Position numbers and translations under genes: made by a program. A stretch of DNA of 22,637 bases, from positions 1 to 22,637 of IMG/VR virus record IMGVR_UViG_3300007538_000211. One strand, given 5' to 3'. Shown piece by piece: positions 3,446-22,637 of this stretch; position 1 is the first letter of the stretch; every line of letters begins with the position of its first letter. This stretch comes from a virus. The notes under the pieces were generated by a model. The model was not told the origin of the DNA. It did no database searches and saw nothing but the letters and a program-made list of their open reading frames with translations.

Positions 3446-3733
3446 ATGTTATTACCAAAAACTATTGAGGTTGGCAAATCAATATACACAATCAATCAGC
3501 CAAAGGAGATTACCAAATGTCTAGGTCAGATTGATTACACGGAAAAGGTTATTGATGTGGCAACCCACGCTCTGAATTACAAACTGGCAGACGGAGAACG
3601 TAGCGAGACGTTCTGGCACGAGCTAACCCACGCCATACTGCACGACATGCACCACCCTCTGACGCGTGACGAGAAGTTTGTAACCGCCTTTGCTCGCCGT
3701 CTCAATGACGCCATCCTTTCTGCGGAGTTCTGA
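3446..3733 (+). CDS. Small HExxH zinc-peptidase-like protein (ImmA/IrrE-like)
   Basis: This 95-residue protein has a clear zinc-peptidase signature, H58-E59-L-T-H62, inside the hydrophobic helix FWHELTHAIL. A possible third metal ligand is E76 in the downstream helix DEKFVTAFARRL. The beta-strand segment before it (IDYTEKVIDVA) followed by the HExxH helix matches the minimal core of ImmA/IrrE-type (COG2856-like) peptidases, several of which cleave repressors. Here it is much shorter than full ImmA proteins and lacks an HTH domain. The start is supported by AGGAGAAG just before the ATG at 3446. It lies between the polymerase and the RecB-like nuclease and overlaps the latter by one base (TGATG), so it is part of the replication operon. 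The target is unknown and proteolytic activity is inferred from the motif alone. Confidence 0.7.
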   Translation: MLLPKTIEVGKSIYTINQPKEITKCLGQIDYTEKVIDVATHALNYKLADGERSETFWHELTHAILHDMHHPLTRDEKFVTAFARRLNDAILSAEF

Positions 3734-11280: not shown

Positions 11281-11428
11281 GGGTGAGGGATTCTTTGTCC
11301 CCGGACTAGACGTAGAAAAGATCAGAGAGCGCGGACTCAAAGCCGCGCTCCCATTTCGATATAGAGTAAAAGCCACCCCCGGCATCAAGGATGGCAAACT
11401 CGGCGTCTGGTTTACCCGTCTGCCTTAG
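11246..11428 (+). CDS. Small unknown phage protein at the end of the rightward block
   Basis: This 60-residue basic protein is not recognised by function. It reads HYPWQTLNKGEGFFVPGLD, then a basic helix (KIRERGLKAAL) and a final strand KLGVWFTRLP. The opening tryptophan-then-GEGFFVP pattern is a recurrent style of short phage protein. It starts inside the end of the primase-helicase gene (35-base overlap, another frame) with only a weak GAAG upstream, so its translation probably depends on the gene before it. Its TAG stop shares bases with the stop of the convergent giant gene. It closes the rightward transcription unit. Confidence 0.6.
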   Translation: MVIHYPWQTLNKGEGFFVPGLDVEKIRERGLKAALPFRYRVKATPGIKDGKLGVWFTRLP

Positions 11429-14400
11429 CGTCCCAGACTTAAGAACCTGTCAGCAATCCGCATCTTGGCTTCGTACAGTCGTTTTAGACGCTCGTCTTTC
11501 TGTTGTTGAGTCATGTACGGGGACGCTTTAATCTTACGCTCAGTTGCTGCTAGCGCACCCAACCGTTGTTGAACAGTACCAGACACAGACATCAATGCAA
11601 TTTCGTTAGCGTTTTCTTGAGCAAACTTTATTGCTTCTGCACGTTGGCCTGACTGCACCAGCCGGTTATATGTGCCTTTTATCTGTTGAATCTCTAGCAT
11701 ACGATCGTAGGCTTCGTCCAGTGTTCCGCGTCCTTCTGCGTTCTGAAACAATCCACCAATAAAAGGTGTTTGATTTGGTTTCATAGACGGCGCTGCTATC
11801 TCAGCACGGGTGTCAGGTGCCAGCAACGGGTTAGCCAACTGAATAATCGCAATACCAAGACTACCGGTATACCCCCGAATCAAATGATCTAGGCTGATTG
11901 CACTCACGCCCAACTTACCTGTTACCGCGCCGAGCAATCTAGATACCTCCGTTGTGTTATCACGATAGCGGTCAGTTGCCAACATTTGAGTCCGTTCGCG
12001 CTGAGACTCAATATCTCCACCAAAGAACGATTTGCCTAAATACACTTCCGTTAAAGGTTTAACTGCCTGCGGCATACTGAATGGGTTGCTTTGCCCCAAT
12101 AACGTACGTAATCCTTTTAGTGCGTTGCCAGCCCGCTCGTCGCCAAATGCCACGTTTATCATAGCCTCTGGCAAAGCCTTAAATAAGAAACCCATCTCAA
12201 ATGGGATAGGCACTTTAATAAAACCTTCGCCAAACGGGTTTGGAACGAACCAGTTAGCGAGCCGTTCTTCAGGACGAGCCCGCTTGTACTCCTCGTCGTC
12301 TTCCATCAGCAACGCATACGCCATTGATAAACCCGCCATCAATACAGCGCGGCGAATCATCTTCTCTTTAATCTGCAACTGCTGGCTAAAAGGCAGCTCG
12401 CCTTTATAGGCGCGATAGAGCACGTCCAAACCCTGAATTTGCGCATTAAAGAACGGAATTAGCACAGACAGTACCTGCATACTGGGGGACACGCCTCGTC
12501 GGCTAAAGTTCATAGACTCCAGTGTACGAAGCAGTGCTTCTTGTTCAGATAAACCCTTTTTAAGCGAGTCTTCGTAAATAACAGCCCGAGTCGCAGAATC
12601 CCCCTGTAAAGCAAAAGCGTCTGCACGGGCAACCAGTTTATCCCAACCACTTCGACCAGAAGAAATGTCTTTGATGAACTTAGCCATATCACGTTCATCA
12701 CCGGAGTAAACGTTGCTACTAATAGCGCCCGTACTCATCAAAGCGTTTTCCGTTGGGCTGCGTCCAGCCACCATCTTAGCAAGCTCTTTCATTGAAGACA
12801 GAACTGGGGGAGCGTCTGTGCCGTTAGTTAGCCACGCGTTTAACGGATCACGAATAACTTGTCGAACCGCATACGCAGGGTTGCGCACAACAAAGTTTCT
12901 TAAAACCGTTGCAGGCACACCCATTGCTTTGAACACAACCGGGATGGTTGTCTTAATACCTTCCATGCCGCGCACAATAAGTTCGGCAGGCACGCCATAG
13001 GCATCGGCGTCAATCAACGCATAGTAATCTTCGCCTTTGCGTTTAAAACGCACAACGTCTGCACTAGCAGGTCCTTTACCTTTTGTTAAGCGTGTTGCAA
13101 CGCCCAGCTTTTGCAACATAAATGATGTTTCTTTAACCGCTTGGTTACGCAAACCCATCCGTGTAAGCAAAAACGTGTTTTGAGCGGCACTGGTAAAGAT
13201 CGGCAAGATTGATTTATTGTCACCAATCAGTTGCTGCAAAATGGGCTCGTCCTTGATATTGGACAGGCGAACTGCACGCTCTTTGTCGATCATCAAATCA
13301 ACCGCGCCGTCTTTAATACGGTAGAACGGCACGTAAGTAATACTCTTAAGTTCTGCTGCTTTTTGTTGTGTCAAATAACCTGTCTGAACAAGGAAGTCCA
13401 GCAAGCCAGCGTTATATTCTTTATACAAGTTACGCGCAGCTTTAAACGCTTTCTCCGCTTCCGGATTCAGCGCCAACTTTTGCAATAAGGCTTGATACTC
13501 TGCTTGTGCTTTAGCCGGGCTCTCAAAATTAAGTTTGTCCCAACCTACCTGTCGAGCGCGTTCGCCTGCTAAATACAGCGTAAAGTCAACTTCCTGCTGA
13601 GTGTCACTACCAAGTTTAGCTTGGGACAATGCCTGCGCTACGTCCATCATTGACGTACCTTTGGTTGAGCGGTACAACGAGGTTGTTACCCCGTTACGAA
13701 CAGACGTTTCCATGACAACAGGGCCATTAGTCATAAACTGACCGGCAAATTGCGACACTTGCTGACCAAAACGCAACAAATAATTAACGTTAGTCGCTTC
13801 TTCGCTTTTAATTTGCCCAGCGCTTACGCCTTTTCTACCAACGGTTTCTGTTGCCGCGTACTGGTCGATAAGCTGAACACGCCCCGTTAAACCAAACAAG
13901 TTACCAAATAAATTGTCAATGAACCCTTTTGGCTGCGCCACAACAGAACTGACCGGCTCATTTTTACGAACAAAAGAAAACACGCCTTTAGACTTCTCAA
14001 CAACGCCAACACTTTTAGGCGCAAAGCTAATCTTTTCTTTTGCTTCAATAAGCGTTTGGATAGGCGGTCTATCGGCTACCCAGTTCGGTGCCTCAAACGT
14101 AGGAGGCGCAAGGTTAACGGTGTCAACCATGCGGACAAGCCCGTCAGAACTTGCAAAGACTCTATTCGCTATTATGTTAAGTTCATCAGCAGGAATTGCA
14201 GAAGCGTCTTTAAAAAGCGTAGCGACTACGTCAGAAAAACCGTTTTCAACAAGATCGGCGCTGTTTACAGTCTCCTTCCAATAATTGTCAAAATCGTATA
14301 TCGTGTCTCGCCCAGTTAACCTGTCTTGTGCTTCTACTAAATCAAGTGCAAACCGTTTAAGTTTTTGCTCTACAAGTTCAACACTTTTCTTGTCAACATC

Positions 14401-17400
14401 CGTATCAACTCCGAGACGCATAAGACGCAAAGCGTCAAGACGGGGTACCAGATTATAGTTTTTCAAATATTTTTCAAAAGCACGCGAAAACATCTCCGTC
14501 TTAAACTGTGTTGGGTCTTCGTAAATGACGTTTGCGTATAGTGCATCGGGAGCATCTACGTTTATTGCTCTACCAAACGAAGACATCTGAACGTTGCCTA
14601 TATTTTTAGCGCCTTTTATCGTTAACTCACTAATCCGGCTGTCAGTAACGGGCGAAATCTGCCCTATTTTCACGTTGGCTGGCGTACTAACAACAGCGCT
14701 TTTATACGGGCTTATGTTATTTAAAGTTTTTAAAGCGGGGAGTATCAAATCGTCACTAGAGCTACCCAAAACCAGTTCGTTTACGTGCTCAAGAACTGGT
14801 AGCGTTATTTGTCTATTCTCTACGTCACCGTCCAAAAGAAAGCTAAATTTAGTCTTTGGCTGCAAACCGCTTATGGTGAGTGCTTGAGCGCTTTTAACGG
14901 TTGAAATTGTTGGACTGAATTTTTCACCAAAAAGTTTAACAGGTTCAAAATCACCGTTTTTAAAAATCAGTCTGCTAAGGACAAACCGTTCTTGTTTAGC
15001 AAAATGTAACGAACTTTTTTCTACAAGTTTAATAAATTTTTTAATAACAGTTGGAGAAACGCTAGGTGTAAAAGCGTAGCCGAGCACACTCCTAAACTCC
15101 AGAGCTCTTATAATTTGCTTTTCTTTAATTACGCCATCGTCATCAATCCAGCTTCTGTGGGGGACAATATTTAAGAAAATCTCTTCTGGTAACAGCTGGT
15201 CTGTTCTTGCGGCTTCAACTAGTGCTTGTTTTAAATTAAAATCTTGCAAATAGTCTTGTGTATCAGCAAAAGAACTGTTTTGTAAAAATTCTTTAGCTAT
15301 CTTTTGCTGTGCATCAGTAAGCGCTTGCTTCGGTGTGTTACCGCGAACCTCCCCAATAATGCCGCTGCCAACCATTCGCACAGCCACTTCCGGCTTGCCG
15401 TTCTTGTAATAAATATAAAAGTCTCCCGACTCAATCTGACTTTTTGCGTGGCCTAAGCTAGCCCCTGTACACCAAGACGTGTTAGCAGCGCCCTCGTTTA
15501 ACGCAACAGCGGCTTCGTGTTCTTTAGACTGCTCGAATTTCTTCCAACCATTGAAGCGAGTATTTTTTTGCGCAGCAGCGTCTGCAGCTTTCTGCATACC
15601 GTCAATAAACGCTTCTTTTAATCCCTTCCCCGCGCGAAGTTCTTCAATGATGGCGTTTGTGTTTGTAGCACCAATAACTGCAACTGGGTGTTCATTGTTT
15701 TTATCCAGTTTAACTAACTTTAATTTACCGTCTTCACCAGAAATAACACCAAACTGCGTTGCAGCTTTAAGGACAAGCGCAGTTTCAGCCATCGTAAAGT
15801 TGTTATATTTACTTACTAAATAGTTAAACAAGCTAGTTATAGCGTCTTTGCGTTCATTGTTTATAGAACGCGCAGTTCTATCCCTTAACACACCGTTGTC
15901 CTGTTTTAAAAAATCTAGTGCTGCAAAAGTTTCAGCCGTCGCTTCTGCGTAATGAAGCATATTGTCAGGATCAAACTCCTTACCGTCTGACATTATGACG
16001 AGCCGTTTAAAAGCCGGTGTAATTGATCCCGCAGTAACAACAGGAAGGCCTTTATTAGCACTGGACATAATTGCGTCCATCTGCTGTATTGCAATTCTTT
16101 CTACGTCTTCAGGCGTGCGATCGGATTGTTTTATAACAGAACCGAACTGTTCTGCGAACTGCCGCATAGAGTTACTGTCCGTAGCCAGCGCTGCAATATC
16201 TTTAGCAGACAGAGTGCGGCCTTCGGTTTTTGTTTCTACACCGCCAACGGTGCGCATACTTGATGGAATAAACAGTGCTTCAACAGAAACCATTGATGCG
16301 CCAAGCATTGTCTTAACTTCATCAGGTTTAATCCCCAGAAGCCGTAAAATACTGGACTTAAACGCATTCCACATATTGCTCATAGTCCACTTGCGCTTAC
16401 TTAATTGCGCTTGCAGATTACGGTTTGACATGACTTCTGCCACGAACTCCGTTAGGCTGCTCTTAGCATTTGAGCTGGTAAATGCGGGGTCGTTTCTTAC
16501 TGCGTTATAAATAGCGTTCAGTTCGTTGATTGCCAAACGCTGTTCTTTAGTTAAAGCAGAGGGGTTTGTTTTTGCCAACTGCACAATCCGTTCAGCAGCA
16601 GCGTGCGTACCTTCATGCAGCAGTGCTTCAATAGACAAGCCACCATTTCGGTTTAGCCAAATATTTGTACTGTTTGCGGCGCCTAAAACTTCTTTTCCAT
16701 CGTCAATCAACGTGTTCTTTATTTCAACGCTGGTGTAGTCTAAGAACTTACGCAAAACTTTAGCTACTGTGCGGCTAACCGGGTCGATGCGATCGTCGGT
16801 AACGATTGCGTCCAGTGCACCGGGAAGATTATTTTTCTCCAACATGCGGACTTGCATGTCCGACAACGCCACACTATCTGTCTCAACGCCGCGCAAGAAC
16901 CTCTTGGGGGCATCGCTAAGATCAAGCTGACTTGCGGCTTCGTCTACTCCACGTAGTACATCGTAATATTGATTCTCTGCTGTCCACCCACTTGGCACCG
17001 CCGCAAAATCAGCTGCACCTTGTCGTCCCCCACGCGGGCCTTTATAAACAAGTGCTTTTTCCTCGCCTGTCGCTCCTGTACGAATAGTTTTGGGAGCACC
17101 ACTCGAACGACGTGTTTCTTGTGGGGTACGTTTTGACTTAGTTGTTTGCGGGAACCCTGCGGCTGTTGCGCCAGCACTCGCTTCTTGTAACTTCTTGGTT
17201 TGCTCGGCAAGTGCTTGGCGGTATGCCGGGGTCTTTTTACCTAGCTCAATAGCTTTAGCTTTACGTTGATTACCAGCATCAAGTTTGAACGCTTGCACTG
17301 CCGGGTCATTTTCTCCGTATTTTTTACGAAGAGCATCCAGTCTTTTACTCAGCCCTTCGTTAAACTGCTCAAATTCTTTAGTCTCAACACCAATATTAAA

Positions 17401-20388
17401 GGCTACGTTACGTGTTGCTAAATCTTTTTCAGCTTCGGGACGGAGATTACCTCGGGCAATTCGAGCTTGCGTAGCAGCAGCGCGAGACTTGGAAACTTTT
17501 GGCTTAACTTCCCCTGCCCGATCTTCCATTTCCGCTTCGTAAGATTTTTTGAAGCGTTTATCTTTTTTGCCAAGTTCAAGCGCTTTTTCTTCTAGCAGCT
17601 TGGGGTTCGTTGTTGTTTCAGCAAATTTAGTGTACGCGTCGGTTTCCTGTCCGTACTGAATGGCTAAGTCGCGCAAATAACCAGAACGCTCTTGTTCCTT
17701 TTGTTCGGCTTTCTTAGCCTCACGCTGTTTAGCGCGTTCAATATTTTTAGCTTCTTCTTCCGTGACGGACGTTTTTGTAGTGGTATACAGGGATGCGTAC
17801 TCAGCCAAAACTTTGTCGCGAATCGGTGTAATTCTGCCAATCAAAGCGTTGTACCGGTTTGTTAAGCCGTCAATTTTGCGCTGCAGATTGTACGCACCCA
17901 TCTTGGTCAACTGCCGTTCGCCAGCGGGCTCGCCTTTTCCAAACTTAGCGTTGAGGTCTTTTGCCTTGTCGGCTAGTGTGGGCGTATCTATACCTGATGC
18001 TTGCTGCGCTTTCAATTCTTCGATCTGGTTGTACAGATCAACAGCTTCTGCGTATAACGATTTTTTAGCGTTGCCTTGTGGTTTTGTCACCTTCCCCACT
18101 AAGTCAGTAACGCGATCCATGACGATTTCGTACTCAACCGCCGCCTTGCCGCCCTTGTCATACACATCCTGAAGCCGAATGCGCTCCATAACAGGTTGCC
18201 CAGTTTTTTTATTAAAAACGGGATTGCCGTTTCTATCTATTTTTTGACGTTCGATCTTTTCTTCGTTTGTTCCGTTAGCAAATCTTGCTCTTTCTTTCGG
18301 GTCAGGGTAGAAAGCGTCAAACAGATTAGCGCGTTCGCGCTTGACACCGCGTGTATCGGTACCCATCTTTTTGCCAAGAATCTCAGCTAGTCGATCGCGC
18401 TCGGTTTTCTTTTCGTCTAGTAACTTGTTTAGAGCTTCTGAGTCGTTTGCGCGGGTGATGTTTAGTATGGTTCGCTCGTCACCACGCCGAATTGCTTCGC
18501 GTAAAAAATTGGTAACGGAAAAAATATCAAACGTATTGTTAAAGCTCTCACCAGCCCGCTCATCTTGGTTAACGGTACGGGATAGTTTGTTTTGTGCTTC
18601 GTTTATTTTTTTGATTACTTCAAAAACTTTAGCGCCTCTAGGGCCTTGCAAAGTAAATGGACCGCCCCAAGAAGACTGCGGACCAACTAAATTGGTATCT
18701 TTAGTTTTGCGGGCTTCGGAAAGGGTGGTGGCTAGCTCGTTTTCAAGTTGCTTAATCTGCTCAACCTGTTCTTTCGGCACTGCCGCTTTTTCTTCACGTA
18801 CGAGCGCCCGTTCGGCTTCGCGTTCAGCCGTAGGCATGCCTGTTACTGGAGCGCCTACCATGTTCTCAAACTTAACAGGCGTTGCTTTTGCCTTTTCACC
18901 TTCAGTAGCCGCCGTAAACATTTCTGTCGTTTGCCCAACAGGTGTGGCTTGACGAGCACGTAGTTCCTCTAGGCGCTGACGGAAGGGGTCTAAAGCCTGT
19001 CGCTTACCCGGAAGCTCTTGTATCTGCGCCTGCAATTGACGAGTTTTTTCGCCTAACTTTTTGGCTTTTTCAACGTCCATTTGCTCAAGCGCAACTAAAC
19101 GGTCTTTTTCAGTCTTGTCCAGTTTTGCTTTGAGCGCTGTTTCCTCGCTTGTCAGACCCTGTTCGGCTTCAGCAAGGTCCTGCTCTGACATTGTTACGCC
19201 GCCCCGCTCTATCACGGCGGGTGCTAGCTCCTGCATCTTCGCTTGCGTCTCCTCAAGCTGGGTAATAAGTGCGTCTTGCGTATCTAAATCTGGCCCTGCC
19301 GCAAGCTGATCTTGGATTTCTGCTAGTTGATTACGCAAAGCGTCGTACTGGTCAGATAAGGTAATCCCTGATCCTACAGGTGCGGGAGGTGCGGGAGGTG
19401 CAGCTGTTTCAGTTACAGGCTGTTCCGGTACTTCCGGCATTGTTTCTACAACAGGTTGCTCGGCAGCTATGCGCTGTTCTTCTTGAGCTACTTCGGCTTT
19501 AGCGCGGCTCTGAGCACCGATGCGGCTACCCGCTCCAAACAAACCACCCAGCGTGGCACCGCCTACAAAGTTATCAATATATTCGTTACGGGCCTGCTCG
19601 TCCATTAAGTCTAGACCGGCCTGCATACGCTCAAATACAACTTGCCCGGCTTCAGTCAAACCCTCAATGCCAGCAGTTTGAAGTGTTTTAACCCCACCAG
19701 CTTTAATAACGCCTGCTGCAGATGCTTGCGCGAGTTTACGTGCGGCATTCAGCGATTCTTCCTTGGTCAGCTCCCGTCCAAATTTACCGACGAGCTTATT
19801 GACGCCGGGTATGAATTTCAAGGCGACGGTATCTAGCGCAGCTTGAGGAACCGCAGCGGCAACGGCAGCACCGAGTTGGAGGTCTTCGGGAGCCGTGCCT
19901 TCTTCTAGCTGGCGAGATAAGTTAGAACCCGTGAACTGTGTGGCAGAAACTGCGCCAGCACCCAACATGCCAGCACCAAGAGCACTAAGACCAAGAGCGC
20001 CCGATACAGGAGCGGACCCAACTAACGCAGCGCCAGCAATAGGAGCCGCCATGTAAGCGGCAGATTGTCCCAACAGGGTGGTGACGTAGCCCCAGGGGTC
20101 TTCAGTTAGCTCGGGAGTCTGGGCAATTTGAGCGGCTTTTTCCCGCTGTGCCTTGGCGTATTCCGCCCCACCTTCGATACCCAGCCCGGCACCGATAGCA
20201 CCAATATCACCCTTGAGGCTTTCAAAACCAGACTTTAAACCTGCAGTAAACCCAGTTTCTGGTGTGGGGGGCGTAATGCCAAAGGACTCTGGATAATCTT
20301 GTCTGGCTTTAGCGTACGCTTGAGCGGCGTTAAACCCCTCTGGTGCTTCATAGTATTTACCATCGGGTAGTTTAATGTAGTTAGCCAT
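11425..20388 (-). CDS. Giant multidomain polyvalent protein (probable ejected or internal virion protein)
   Basis: This is a 2987-residue protein, intact over almost 9 kb. In order: hydrophobic glycine/alanine-rich helices (about 60-310) that could insert in membranes; a proline-rich linker (APPAPPAP, near 335); a long lysine/glutamate/glutamine-rich coiled-coil region (about 340-1120); a zinc-peptidase-like domain with H1258-E-G-T-H1262 and a possible ligand E1314; a PcfJ-like module around the W1639-C-T motif and YIYYKNGKP; a strand-rich solenoid-like stretch (about 1740-1930); and a C-terminal helical region with RNPAYAVRQVIRDP and PFFNAQIQGL, like the large-polyvalent-protein domain LPD38. 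Such proteins are thought to enter the host with the DNA. The start is ATG 20388 with GAGG ten bases upstream; a TTG at 20424 is less likely. No secretion signal is seen. Confidence 0.85.
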   Translation of the reverse strand: MANYIKLPDGKYYEAPEGFNAAQAYAKARQDYPESFGITPPTPETGFTAGLKSGFESLKGDIGAIGAGLGIEGGAEYAKAQREKAAQIAQTPELTEDPWGYVTTLLGQSAAYMAAPIAGAALVGSAPVSGALGLSALGAGMLGAGAVSATQFTGSNLSRQLEEGTAPEDLQLGAAVAAAVPQAALDTVALKFIPGVNKLVGKFGRELTKEESLNAARKLAQASAAGVIKAGGVKTLQTAGIEGLTEAGQVVFERMQAGLDLMDEQARNEYIDNFVGGATLGGLFGAGSRIGAQSRAKAEVAQEEQRIAAEQPVVETMPEVPEQPVTETAAPPAPPAPVGSGITLSDQYDALRNQLAEIQDQLAAGPDLDTQDALITQLEETQAKMQELAPAVIERGGVTMSEQDLAEAEQGLTSEETALKAKLDKTEKDRLVALEQMDVEKAKKLGEKTRQLQAQIQELPGKRQALDPFRQRLEELRARQATPVGQTTEMFTAATEGEKAKATPVKFENMVGAPVTGMPTAEREAERALVREEKAAVPKEQVEQIKQLENELATTLSEARKTKDTNLVGPQSSWGGPFTLQGPRGAKVFEVIKKINEAQNKLSRTVNQDERAGESFNNTFDIFSVTNFLREAIRRGDERTILNITRANDSEALNKLLDEKKTERDRLAEILGKKMGTDTRGVKRERANLFDAFYPDPKERARFANGTNEEKIERQKIDRNGNPVFNKKTGQPVMERIRLQDVYDKGGKAAVEYEIVMDRVTDLVGKVTKPQGNAKKSLYAEAVDLYNQIEELKAQQASGIDTPTLADKAKDLNAKFGKGEPAGERQLTKMGAYNLQRKIDGLTNRYNALIGRITPIRDKVLAEYASLYTTTKTSVTEEEAKNIERAKQREAKKAEQKEQERSGYLRDLAIQYGQETDAYTKFAETTTNPKLLEEKALELGKKDKRFKKSYEAEMEDRAGEVKPKVSKSRAAATQARIARGNLRPEAEKDLATRNVAFNIGVETKEFEQFNEGLSKRLDALRKKYGENDPAVQAFKLDAGNQRKAKAIELGKKTPAYRQALAEQTKKLQEASAGATAAGFPQTTKSKRTPQETRRSSGAPKTIRTGATGEEKALVYKGPRGGRQGAADFAAVPSGWTAENQYYDVLRGVDEAASQLDLSDAPKRFLRGVETDSVALSDMQVRMLEKNNLPGALDAIVTDDRIDPVSRTVAKVLRKFLDYTSVEIKNTLIDDGKEVLGAANSTNIWLNRNGGLSIEALLHEGTHAAAERIVQLAKTNPSALTKEQRLAINELNAIYNAVRNDPAFTSSNAKSSLTEFVAEVMSNRNLQAQLSKRKWTMSNMWNAFKSSILRLLGIKPDEVKTMLGASMVSVEALFIPSSMRTVGGVETKTEGRTLSAKDIAALATDSNSMRQFAEQFGSVIKQSDRTPEDVERIAIQQMDAIMSSANKGLPVVTAGSITPAFKRLVIMSDGKEFDPDNMLHYAEATAETFAALDFLKQDNGVLRDRTARSINNERKDAITSLFNYLVSKYNNFTMAETALVLKAATQFGVISGEDGKLKLVKLDKNNEHPVAVIGATNTNAIIEELRAGKGLKEAFIDGMQKAADAAAQKNTRFNGWKKFEQSKEHEAAVALNEGAANTSWCTGASLGHAKSQIESGDFYIYYKNGKPEVAVRMVGSGIIGEVRGNTPKQALTDAQQKIAKEFLQNSSFADTQDYLQDFNLKQALVEAARTDQLLPEEIFLNIVPHRSWIDDDGVIKEKQIIRALEFRSVLGYAFTPSVSPTVIKKFIKLVEKSSLHFAKQERFVLSRLIFKNGDFEPVKLFGEKFSPTISTVKSAQALTISGLQPKTKFSFLLDGDVENRQITLPVLEHVNELVLGSSSDDLILPALKTLNNISPYKSAVVSTPANVKIGQISPVTDSRISELTIKGAKNIGNVQMSSFGRAINVDAPDALYANVIYEDPTQFKTEMFSRAFEKYLKNYNLVPRLDALRLMRLGVDTDVDKKSVELVEQKLKRFALDLVEAQDRLTGRDTIYDFDNYWKETVNSADLVENGFSDVVATLFKDASAIPADELNIIANRVFASSDGLVRMVDTVNLAPPTFEAPNWVADRPPIQTLIEAKEKISFAPKSVGVVEKSKGVFSFVRKNEPVSSVVAQPKGFIDNLFGNLFGLTGRVQLIDQYAATETVGRKGVSAGQIKSEEATNVNYLLRFGQQVSQFAGQFMTNGPVVMETSVRNGVTTSLYRSTKGTSMMDVAQALSQAKLGSDTQQEVDFTLYLAGERARQVGWDKLNFESPAKAQAEYQALLQKLALNPEAEKAFKAARNLYKEYNAGLLDFLVQTGYLTQQKAAELKSITYVPFYRIKDGAVDLMIDKERAVRLSNIKDEPILQQLIGDNKSILPIFTSAAQNTFLLTRMGLRNQAVKETSFMLQKLGVATRLTKGKGPASADVVRFKRKGEDYYALIDADAYGVPAELIVRGMEGIKTTIPVVFKAMGVPATVLRNFVVRNPAYAVRQVIRDPLNAWLTNGTDAPPVLSSMKELAKMVAGRSPTENALMSTGAISSNVYSGDERDMAKFIKDISSGRSGWDKLVARADAFALQGDSATRAVIYEDSLKKGLSEQEALLRTLESMNFSRRGVSPSMQVLSVLIPFFNAQIQGLDVLYRAYKGELPFSQQLQIKEKMIRRAVLMAGLSMAYALLMEDDEEYKRARPEERLANWFVPNPFGEGFIKVPIPFEMGFLFKALPEAMINVAFGDERAGNALKGLRTLLGQSNPFSMPQAVKPLTEVYLGKSFFGGDIESQRERTQMLATDRYRDNTTEVSRLLGAVTGKLGVSAISLDHLIRGYTGSLGIAIIQLANPLLAPDTRAEIAAPSMKPNQTPFIGGLFQNAEGRGTLDEAYDRMLEIQQIKGTYNRLVQSGQRAEAIKFAQENANEIALMSVSGTVQQRLGALAATERKIKASPYMTQQQKDERLKRLYEAKMRIADRFLSLGR

Positions 20389-20454: not shown

Positions 20455-22320
20455 CTACTTTGGCTTAACCACGGTAGCGTTTCCTGTTGGAGCCTCCCAG
20501 TTATCTTTATACATGGCGTTAAATTCCGCAAAGCTAGGCAACCCTTCTGTAATACCGCCTTTAATAAGCTCGGCACGGAACTTAGCATACGCATCTTCTC
20601 GGTTGGCTTGTTGAGCATATTTTGCTTTAATTGCCGCCATAGCGTCAACGCCTGATTTTATGTCACCGTCACCAAGTTGCTGATACAGTTGCAGGTCCCC
20701 AGTAGGCAACCTTGCAATTGCAAGGCGGGTCATCAGTTCTGCCTGAAGGCGACGATCACCTGCAACAAGGCCTGCGGAAGCAATGTCTCGATCAGCGGCA
20801 ATTTTCTCTGTTTGCAGTACAGAATTAACGTATGAGTTTGCAGCGGTTGTAGCAATCTCTTTCGTCATGTTGAGCTTATCTCTGCCTACTTCGTAGGTTA
20901 CACGAGCTAAACCGGCTGCGTTACTGTCAACTTTAGCTTCAGCAGCGCGTATTTCTGCCATAGTAGCCTTCTTCTCGCCACGGCGAATATCCTGCAAATT
21001 GGCAAGTGCTTCATCTAGTTTATCGCGACGCGCGTCAATTTTATCCACACCTTCTTTGTACGCTTTAGTACCGACTAGTGCGCCCTTCCCGATGTTCTCA
21101 AATGCGTACTGAGAATTACCAGCCATCATTGCCAGACCAGCTTCAAGAAGCGCCATGCTGACGTTTTTGTCTTCTTTGCCCTCAAGCTCTTTAAGCTGTT
21201 TGTTGAGTTTAGCTTCGCGTTCAACACCATACTCGCCTAATGCTTTGTTATCCCGATTAATTTTGGCTAGGGCTTTTTTGTCTGCCTCTCCCTGCGCGGT
21301 TACTGCAGCTTTGCCTTTCTTTTCCAAATCATCATACTGCTTGCCCAGTGCACCAAGGCCATATAATTCCTCATATCCTTTTCGATCCGTAGGAAGAGAT
21401 GACTTTGGAAGCGCTGGAAGTCCCTGACTGCGACCAGTGGTTAGCGCAGTCGCTGCGGCTAACGCTTCAGTTATTGCTGCATCTGATTCACTTACCGGTT
21501 TCTCTGACGCCTTATCTTGTGCGACTGCTGCTCGCGAACGATTTCGCATAGCGTCGGATTCAATCGTACTCCCCGCAGGCACAGCCGGACGCGGTGCGGG
21601 AGGGGCTGGAGGTGGTGGCTGAATAACAGCTCTATCCTCGTCTGATAAGAAACGATCACTCATGGCGAAGTCTTTTATCGCGTCGTATGTACCGCTCACT
21701 GCATCCCGAACCGCCGGGATTTTAGACGCTTCGTACGTCGCTCCCAGACCAAGTACGTAAGGGTTTTGTAGATACCGTGAAAGGCGTCCAAGAGCACCAG
21801 CTTTAGGGGTAGTTGAAGTAGCAGCAGCACTTGGCGCTGCCGCAGCGGGCGCTGCCGCAGTAGGCGCAGGCATGCGTGGGCCCTGTGTAGCTTTTTCAAA
21901 CGCGGCCTTTAACGCTTGCTGTTCTTTAGGTGTGGCTTCGACAAAATCTTTAGCCGATTTGCCAATACTGCTTAAAAATTGAACAAAAGAGGCGTTGGGA
22001 CCTCCTGTGGCACCGCCGGGCGCAAACGCCAAAATACCACCTTCAGCAAACTCCATCTCACCAGCAGGTAACTGACCAATGCCTACGTCTTCTGGCATGG
22101 GTTGTTGGGGCGCCATCTCGGCAACTGCCTGATCAACAACCTTGGGCTGTTCCTGCATACCCTGCGCTTGCTGCGCGGCGCGGACCTGTTTACGGCGGTT
22201 GGATTCCGACACCGCCAACGCCATGATGTAGGGGTCGTTCTTGTTCATGGCAGCGTATTGCTGCAATGCCTGATCTGGCAAACTTGCCAGTTTTGCGGTC
22301 ATATTTTGTACGTTCAGCAT
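20455..22320 (-). CDS. Putative internal virion protein, alanine/proline- and coiled-coil-rich
   Basis: This 621-residue protein has no enzyme motif. The N-terminal 80 residues are glutamine-rich helix, followed near residue 88 by FAEGGILAFAPGG. Two alanine/proline linkers come next, one with AAAPAAAAPSAAA and one with PPPPAPPAPRP near 240. A charged coiled coil (about 320-385) leads into MALLEAGLAMMAGNS at 389-403 and FENIGKGALVGTKAY, then more helix to the end. The MMAG-then-IG-GALVG segment is a pattern I associate with internal or core proteins of podovirus-like phages. A structural or ejected role fits with its place before the giant protein. The ATG at 22320 has GAGG seven bases upstream, and the previous gene ends nine bases before. 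The ORF ends in TAG at 20455-20457. Confidence 0.7.
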   Translation of the reverse strand: MLNVQNMTAKLASLPDQALQQYAAMNKNDPYIMALAVSESNRRKQVRAAQQAQGMQEQPKVVDQAVAEMAPQQPMPEDVGIGQLPAGEMEFAEGGILAFAPGGATGGPNASFVQFLSSIGKSAKDFVEATPKEQQALKAAFEKATQGPRMPAPTAAAPAAAAPSAAATSTTPKAGALGRLSRYLQNPYVLGLGATYEASKIPAVRDAVSGTYDAIKDFAMSDRFLSDEDRAVIQPPPPAPPAPRPAVPAGSTIESDAMRNRSRAAVAQDKASEKPVSESDAAITEALAAATALTTGRSQGLPALPKSSLPTDRKGYEELYGLGALGKQYDDLEKKGKAAVTAQGEADKKALAKINRDNKALGEYGVEREAKLNKQLKELEGKEDKNVSMALLEAGLAMMAGNSQYAFENIGKGALVGTKAYKEGVDKIDARRDKLDEALANLQDIRRGEKKATMAEIRAAEAKVDSNAAGLARVTYEVGRDKLNMTKEIATTAANSYVNSVLQTEKIAADRDIASAGLVAGDRRLQAELMTRLAIARLPTGDLQLYQQLGDGDIKSGVDAMAAIKAKYAQQANREDAYAKFRAELIKGGITEGLPSFAEFNAMYKDNWEAPTGNATVVKPK

Positions 22321-22329
22321 ATTTGTGCC

Positions 22330-22637
22330 TCAAGCCATTTTCTTAAGTGCCAGCTCTGCCAACCCTGCTGGTCTAACTTCGCCGCCTTCTTTCATCCGAC
22401 TCAAACCGTAAGCCGCAGTACCAAGACCAGCCAGTTGTGACATAGCACTAGGACCGGGGGCGTACATCGAGGACACAGTGCCCATCGGAGTGCCGCGCAG
22501 CATGGAGTTCATAAACTCAAGCTGTTGATACGGGAAGCGTTGCTGGTTCAAGAAGTCCTGATAAGCAGTATCTAATCCGGCTTGTTCTTGGGCTTGACGT
22601 TGGGTACCGTACTCATTCTGCAGTTTGTTGATGTCCA
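22330..22637 (-). CDS. C-terminal part of a virion-type protein (partial)
   Basis: The frame is open from the right edge to the TGA at 22330-22332, giving about 101 residues. The part just inside the edge (NKLQNEYGTQRQAQEQAG, then YQDFLNQQRFPYQQLEFM) is a glutamine-rich helix, followed by a proline/serine turn, a hydrophobic glycine segment (MSQLAGLGTAAYGL) and the ending KEGGEVRPAGLAELAL. No start is present within the window with a good ribosome-binding site; the first candidate, at 22551, is a TTG inside continuous coding sequence, so the gene begins outside. The helix-QQL-hydrophobic glycine layout is seen in small internal or tail-associated proteins of podovirus-like phages, an impression rather than a firm match. 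It is the first visible gene of the leftward block. Confidence 0.7.
   Translation of the reverse strand, partial: DINKLQNEYGTQRQAQEQAGLDTAYQDFLNQQRFPYQQLEFMNSMLRGTPMGTVSSMYAPGPSAMSQLAGLGTAAYGLSRMKEGGEVRPAGLAELALKKMA

Follow-up and report, generated by a model that had tools for sequence, protein, structure and literature searches.

The window, by which we mean the whole stretch of DNA analysed, is a 22,637-bp virus fragment from IMG/VR. Its minus strand carries a giant gene in one unbroken frame. The initial annotation, made from the letters, had described an intact leftward frame, and this was borne out at 2987 codons on the minus strand (positions 11425 to 20388), whereas no open stretch in 200 shuffles exceeded 222 codons. 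GAGGA lies approximately 11 nt 5′ of the ATG at 20388, and a pattern scan placed terminator-like hairpins past the 3′ end of the gene. The locus comprises the following features.

22330-22635, minus strand: gene for a DNA ejection protein, C-terminal part only, truncated by the window end (phrog_4287, E = 1.1e-5)
20455-22320, minus strand: 621-aa gene upstream of the giant gene, in a gp15-like position by gene order
11425-20388, minus strand: gene for the 2987-aa ejection-type giant protein, ATG at 20388, stop at 11425
19804-20091, minus strand: Gly/Ala-rich hydrophobic segment, residues ~100-195, from hydropathy and composition
17149-19341, minus strand: charged region, residues ~350-1080, probable coiled coil, variable among relatives
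16234-16878, minus strand: zincin domain, residues 1171-1385, with homologues in the ejection proteins of phiKMV type and of PhiM1 and in N4-like vRNAP
16603-16617, minus strand: HEGTH motif, residues 1258-1262, kept in all 18 loci that were fetched independently and extend over it
16447-16449, minus strand: Glu1314, candidate third zinc ligand (E in 84/86 and D in 2/86 aligned sequences)
14044-16251, minus strand: all-or-none cassette, residues ~1380-2115 (~740 residues), between the zincin and the C-terminal region
15253-15555, minus strand: WCT or PcfJ-like module, residues ~1612-1712, with a helix, three strands and a helix after the WCT loop
14521-14988, minus strand: beta-solenoid predicted by AlphaFold2, residues 1801-1956, the least conserved domain
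11428-14001, minus strand: C-terminal helical region, residues 2130-2987, conserved across a 44-sequence alignment (AlphaFold2 pLDDT 70)
11758-12297, minus strand: LPD38 (PF18857), residues 2698-2877 (Pfam E = 1.4e-32)
11372-11395, minus strand: terminator-like hairpin 3′ of the giant gene, from the pattern scan only

Judged from gene order, an ejection operon ends with the giant gene. The operon is gp14-gp15-gp16-like, with the giant gene as its final and largest member, in both the window and its relatives. Plus-strand replication genes converge on the giant gene. The 621-aa upstream gene had no family match in the window copy. In the relatives L038 and L035, the gene directly upstream contains an SLT (transglycosylase) or endolysin domain, both murein hydrolases. 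In Pelagibacter podophages, LPD38-type relatives occupy the position of T7 gp16. Because the ejection gene order is found in the window and in relatives, including this gp16 position, we read the protein as an ejection protein; the 22.6-kb record itself is a fragment that contains no capsid or tail genes. Injection of the protein into the host, as had been proposed initially, appears likely from the same operon context.

The N-terminal part of the protein agreed with what had been noted from the letters. The hydrophobic Gly/Ala helices correspond to a hydrophobic Gly/Ala stretch at residues ~105-190, and the segment that contains it (residues ~100-195) is a candidate membrane-inserting part by analogy with the N-terminus of N4 vRNAP (PMC12633501). 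The long charged region was found at residues ~350-1080, where charged residues make up 29-40% of each 100 aa across most of its length, identity to the nearest relatives is 35-43%, and a coiled coil is probable. The motifs that had been named could also be placed, with WCT at residue 1639, YYKNGKP at 1660 and PFFNAQIQGL at 2645.

The HEGTH site reported at residues 1258-1262 is present, at a protein composition that predicts just 0.003 HExxH. Because the scan pattern for the first locus set held HExxH, HExxH counts within that set are circular; Glu1314 lay outside that pattern. In 18 of the 18 loci with coverage that were fetched by the WCT pattern and were absent from the HExxH set, H1258, E1259, H1262 and E1314 were all conserved. 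By tblastn, the HEGTH region matched N4-like phage virion RNA polymerases as well as an internal virion protein of phikF77. An initial profile (A2) included sequences from isolates, which made the PDB search partly circular, and the search was therefore repeated with a profile (A7) made from the window and metagenomic (IMG/VR) loci only. Among solved proteins, the A7 profile matched the internal virion protein 9sfn (6e-12), PhiM1 gp48 (8vb2, 2.7e-9) and gp10 of 23sg (7.9e-6), while the match to N4 vRNAP was borderline (0.017). These comparisons indicate that the peptidase-like module suspected at the outset is a zincin, homologous to its counterpart in phage ejection proteins of solved structure. 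Homologues of the zincin are present in N4 vRNAP and phiKMV-type ejection proteins, a point that was absent from the initial annotation. The domain would bind zinc and act in proteolysis.

Comparison with known systems shows what the window protein has in common with other ejected proteins. Relatives of the zincin are virion ejection proteins (PMC12633501, PMC11440229). Chain G of 9sfn (a phiKMV-size internal virion protein of 1337 aa) and the tetrameric gp48 of PhiM1 (8vb2) are less than half as long as the window protein. Like it, they have an HExxH domain followed by a conserved Glu and are the largest protein of the ejection cluster; unlike in the window protein, no WCT/solenoid cassette aligned in them. 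The N4 vRNAP has a membrane-type N-terminus, HExxH in its C1 part and then a helical C2 without known relatives, as described in a preprint (PMC12633501). This protein (gp50, Schitoviridae) resembles the window protein in being a giant ejected protein with a membrane-type N-terminus, an HExxH domain and a large helical C-terminus. In contrast, the cassette is absent from N4, the window C-terminus is not detectably related to C2, and Pfam and PHROGs scans of the window protein gave no RNA polymerase family.

Alternatively, the zincin could be a peptidase that processes its own polyprotein and so releases separate effectors, which would be compatible with an ejection role. Self-processing has been proposed for zincin-containing polyvalent proteins by Iyer et al. 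2017 (PMC5512222), and the catalytic residues are conserved in the window protein. However, N4 vRNAP, which bears a related domain, is packaged unprocessed (PMC5512222), and we regard self-processing as possible but doubtful. Elsewhere in the window, a 95-aa protein (3446-3733, plus strand) that matches phrog_1233 (function unknown) has a second small zinc-type motif, HELTH.

At the other end of the protein, the LPD38-like C-terminus anticipated earlier was confirmed by Pfam, which gave 113.8 bits against a gathering cut-off of 27 and covered all 189 positions of the family; the Pfam scan of the giant protein found no other domain. Neither an hhalign profile comparison of the C-terminus with N4 C2 nor a fold comparison of its model with the PDB gave a match, and the evidence for kinship to one structural gp16 class therefore goes no further than the zincin. 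Among relatives of the C-terminal region, several bear the annotation methylase, RelA/SpoT or polyvalent protein. The phage polyvalent proteins of Iyer et al. 2017 (PMC5512222) contain zincin and LPD38, as the window protein does; PcfJ, solenoid and LRR domains are all unmentioned in the main text of that study. These shared domains and annotations are what one would expect if the protein were a polyvalent effector and not part of the ejection channel, with the adjacent ejection genes being incidental. This is unlikely, given that the gene order is conserved in relatives and that the closest zincin relatives of solved structure are core ejection proteins.

Between the zincin and the C-terminal region lies a cassette that is either present or absent as a whole. 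Among 44 zincin-scan relatives in which both ends could be mapped, the distance between the zincin end and the C-terminal region was 3-55 residues in 20 and 678-903 residues in 24, with no intermediate values, and each of the 24 long-gap loci has one WCT-type motif. In a tree built from the C-terminal region (31 carriers and 13 non-carriers, the second scan having enriched carriers), the cassette state changed approximately 8 times, compared with 11.3 times on average when cassette labels were shuffled on the same tree. This was a quick tree with some long branches, and at least 6 of the changes are forced by well-supported branches. When L038, which has the cassette, was compared with L040, which does not, DNA identity was 90-93% on the C-terminal side and 72-85% on the other. 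Because the protein junction alignments (L038/L040 and L036/L043) were poor, the cassette boundaries rest on BLAST mapping. The cassette has thus been repeatedly gained or lost among related phages, and within it the PcfJ-like module and the solenoid come and go together, as a single removable unit that the initial annotation had not recognised. Isolates showed no cassette; among them is Escherichia phage PTXU04, a cultivated relative with an LPD38-type C-terminus. Zincin and LPD38 were already known as phage polyvalent-protein domains, and the swappable cassette is the new element. For scanning viral contigs, the whole protein as a single sequence gave no matches and the A1 alignment was too divergent; the zincin and WCT alignments succeeded.

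An AlphaFold2 model of the cassette (residues 1372-1966, 42 sequences, mean pLDDT 82.8) consists, in order, of a helical part, the WCT module, a mainly helical stretch (~1692-1798) and an all-beta solenoid. Discrete domains had been expected here, and the model predicts two, the WCT module and the solenoid. The beta stretch annotated at ~1740-1930 does exist as an all-beta solenoid, but its limits had to be moved to 1801-1956. Additional residues (~80-180) lie between the helical part and WCT in L022, L023, L026, L049 and others and are absent from the window protein.

The WCT core has 25 invariant positions across divergent phages, many of them polar or of catalytic type (C, T, D, R, E, Q), and no catalytic family was recognised for the cassette. 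When the cassette model was compared with BFVD by Foldseek, an uncharacterised phage protein matched with a probability of 1.0, and PcfJ proteins occupied ranks 3-5 with probabilities of 0.87, 0.33 and 0.51. Two of these were identified as PcfJ by name and the other, LP65 gp137, by Pfam (1.2e-16). The PcfJ family (PF14284) has HCV where the window protein has WCT. The PF14284 HMM matched 0 of 20 members, even at E = 1, and hhalign of WCT against a larger PcfJ set was at background level and not significant, with the Cys and RG register retained in the alignments. Smaller, partly mis-extracted sets had given better hhalign results, which we rejected as proof of a WCT-PcfJ relationship since the larger set returned them to background. 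PDB searches found no experimental PcfJ structure. "PcfJ-like" is therefore a statement at the level of fold: the initial assignment finds some support in the predicted-structure comparison (PcfJ proteins at three of the first five places in BFVD) but none from the PF14284 HMM or hhalign. The Foldseek PDB list for the cassette model (14521-16275) was rich in GNAT acetyltransferases and MprF-type transferases, with weak matches, none at E <1e-3, and counts only as a lead.

The WCT profile also matched two other giant viral proteins, as well as proteins encoded by metagenome-assembled genomes of Patescibacteria, Bacilli and Gastranaerophilales. Among 50,697 records, WCT queries returned no phage, and PF14284 found no PcfJ in four genomes with WCT proteins. 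Several WCT proteins outside the giant ejection proteins have solenoid-type repeats after WCT, and the viral solenoid profile matched the solenoid repeats of L141 (1.4e-17). By these profile matches, the combination of WCT and solenoid recurs outside the giant ejection protein, which the initial annotation had also missed.

To five near relatives, the solenoid is 26-30% identical, compared with 54-67% for the zincin, WCT and the C-terminus. In ten close pairs, dN/dS was 0.11-0.49 for the solenoid and 0.05-0.10 for the C-terminus. All ratios were <0.5 except one WCT value (L100/L118), which rests on almost no synonymous change, indicating that purifying selection acts on the cassette and that it is functional; no sign of positive selection was seen in these pairs. 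Because the solenoid was much closer or more distant than its flanks in some pairs, the sequences suggest that it has been exchanged by recombination. Its faster change could reflect relaxed constraint instead of target-driven diversification. A purely structural cassette, serving as an optional spacer or virion-packing module without a host target, would suit its position between two core domains and the lack of a recognised catalytic family, but is improbable given the invariant, largely polar WCT core across divergent phages, the occurrence of WCT and solenoid in non-ejection proteins of metagenome-assembled bacterial genomes, and the roughly half of zincin-scan relatives that live without it.

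We consider it likely that an uncultivated short-tailed phage has the giant protein as its gp16-type (largest) ejection protein, and that this protein carries an accessory host-directed cassette. We infer that the protein is packaged in the capsid, ejected and able to bind a target. It would exit through the tail ahead of the DNA as the largest of three ejected proteins, with the N-terminal hydrophobic segment contacting the envelope. The zincin and the helical LPD38-type C-terminus would be the core machinery common to relatives, which makes the core a variant of the gp16-type ejection protein already known. The solenoid, behaving like a recognition surface, would probably bind a host target, and the PcfJ-like domain would act on the bound target. 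Repeated gain and loss of the cassette is the behaviour to be expected from an accessory part directed at the host, and we favour such an action of the cassette on the host. More tentatively, the largest ejection protein of short-tailed phages may be a carrier of an exchangeable recognition cassette, in which the solenoid picks a target (e.g. a defence protein) and the PcfJ-like enzyme acts on it at entry. If so, PcfJ-like domains, known also from conjugative elements, would gain a role as delivered effectors. The protein connects three subjects so far studied separately, namely the ejection proteins of podophages, polyvalent proteins, and domains of PcfJ-like type. Close relatives with and without the cassette provide a natural comparison for the role of an ejected accessory domain in the first step of infection.

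Some WCT proteins differ from the window protein in their other parts. The Patescibacteria WCT proteins (L143-L159 set) are mostly without repeats and have another C-terminal part in common. For the WCT-solenoid protein of L145, the sole matching phage record was EBPR podovirus 1 (JF412294.1:112-675), which matched the solenoid part only and has no annotated gene there. The L141 protein (L141:4212-15764, IMGVR_UViG_3300042429_000905) is a viral protein of 3851 aa whose C-terminus does not align to the window protein and which combines Kinase-PolyVal, HETTH, the WCT module and a much longer solenoid.
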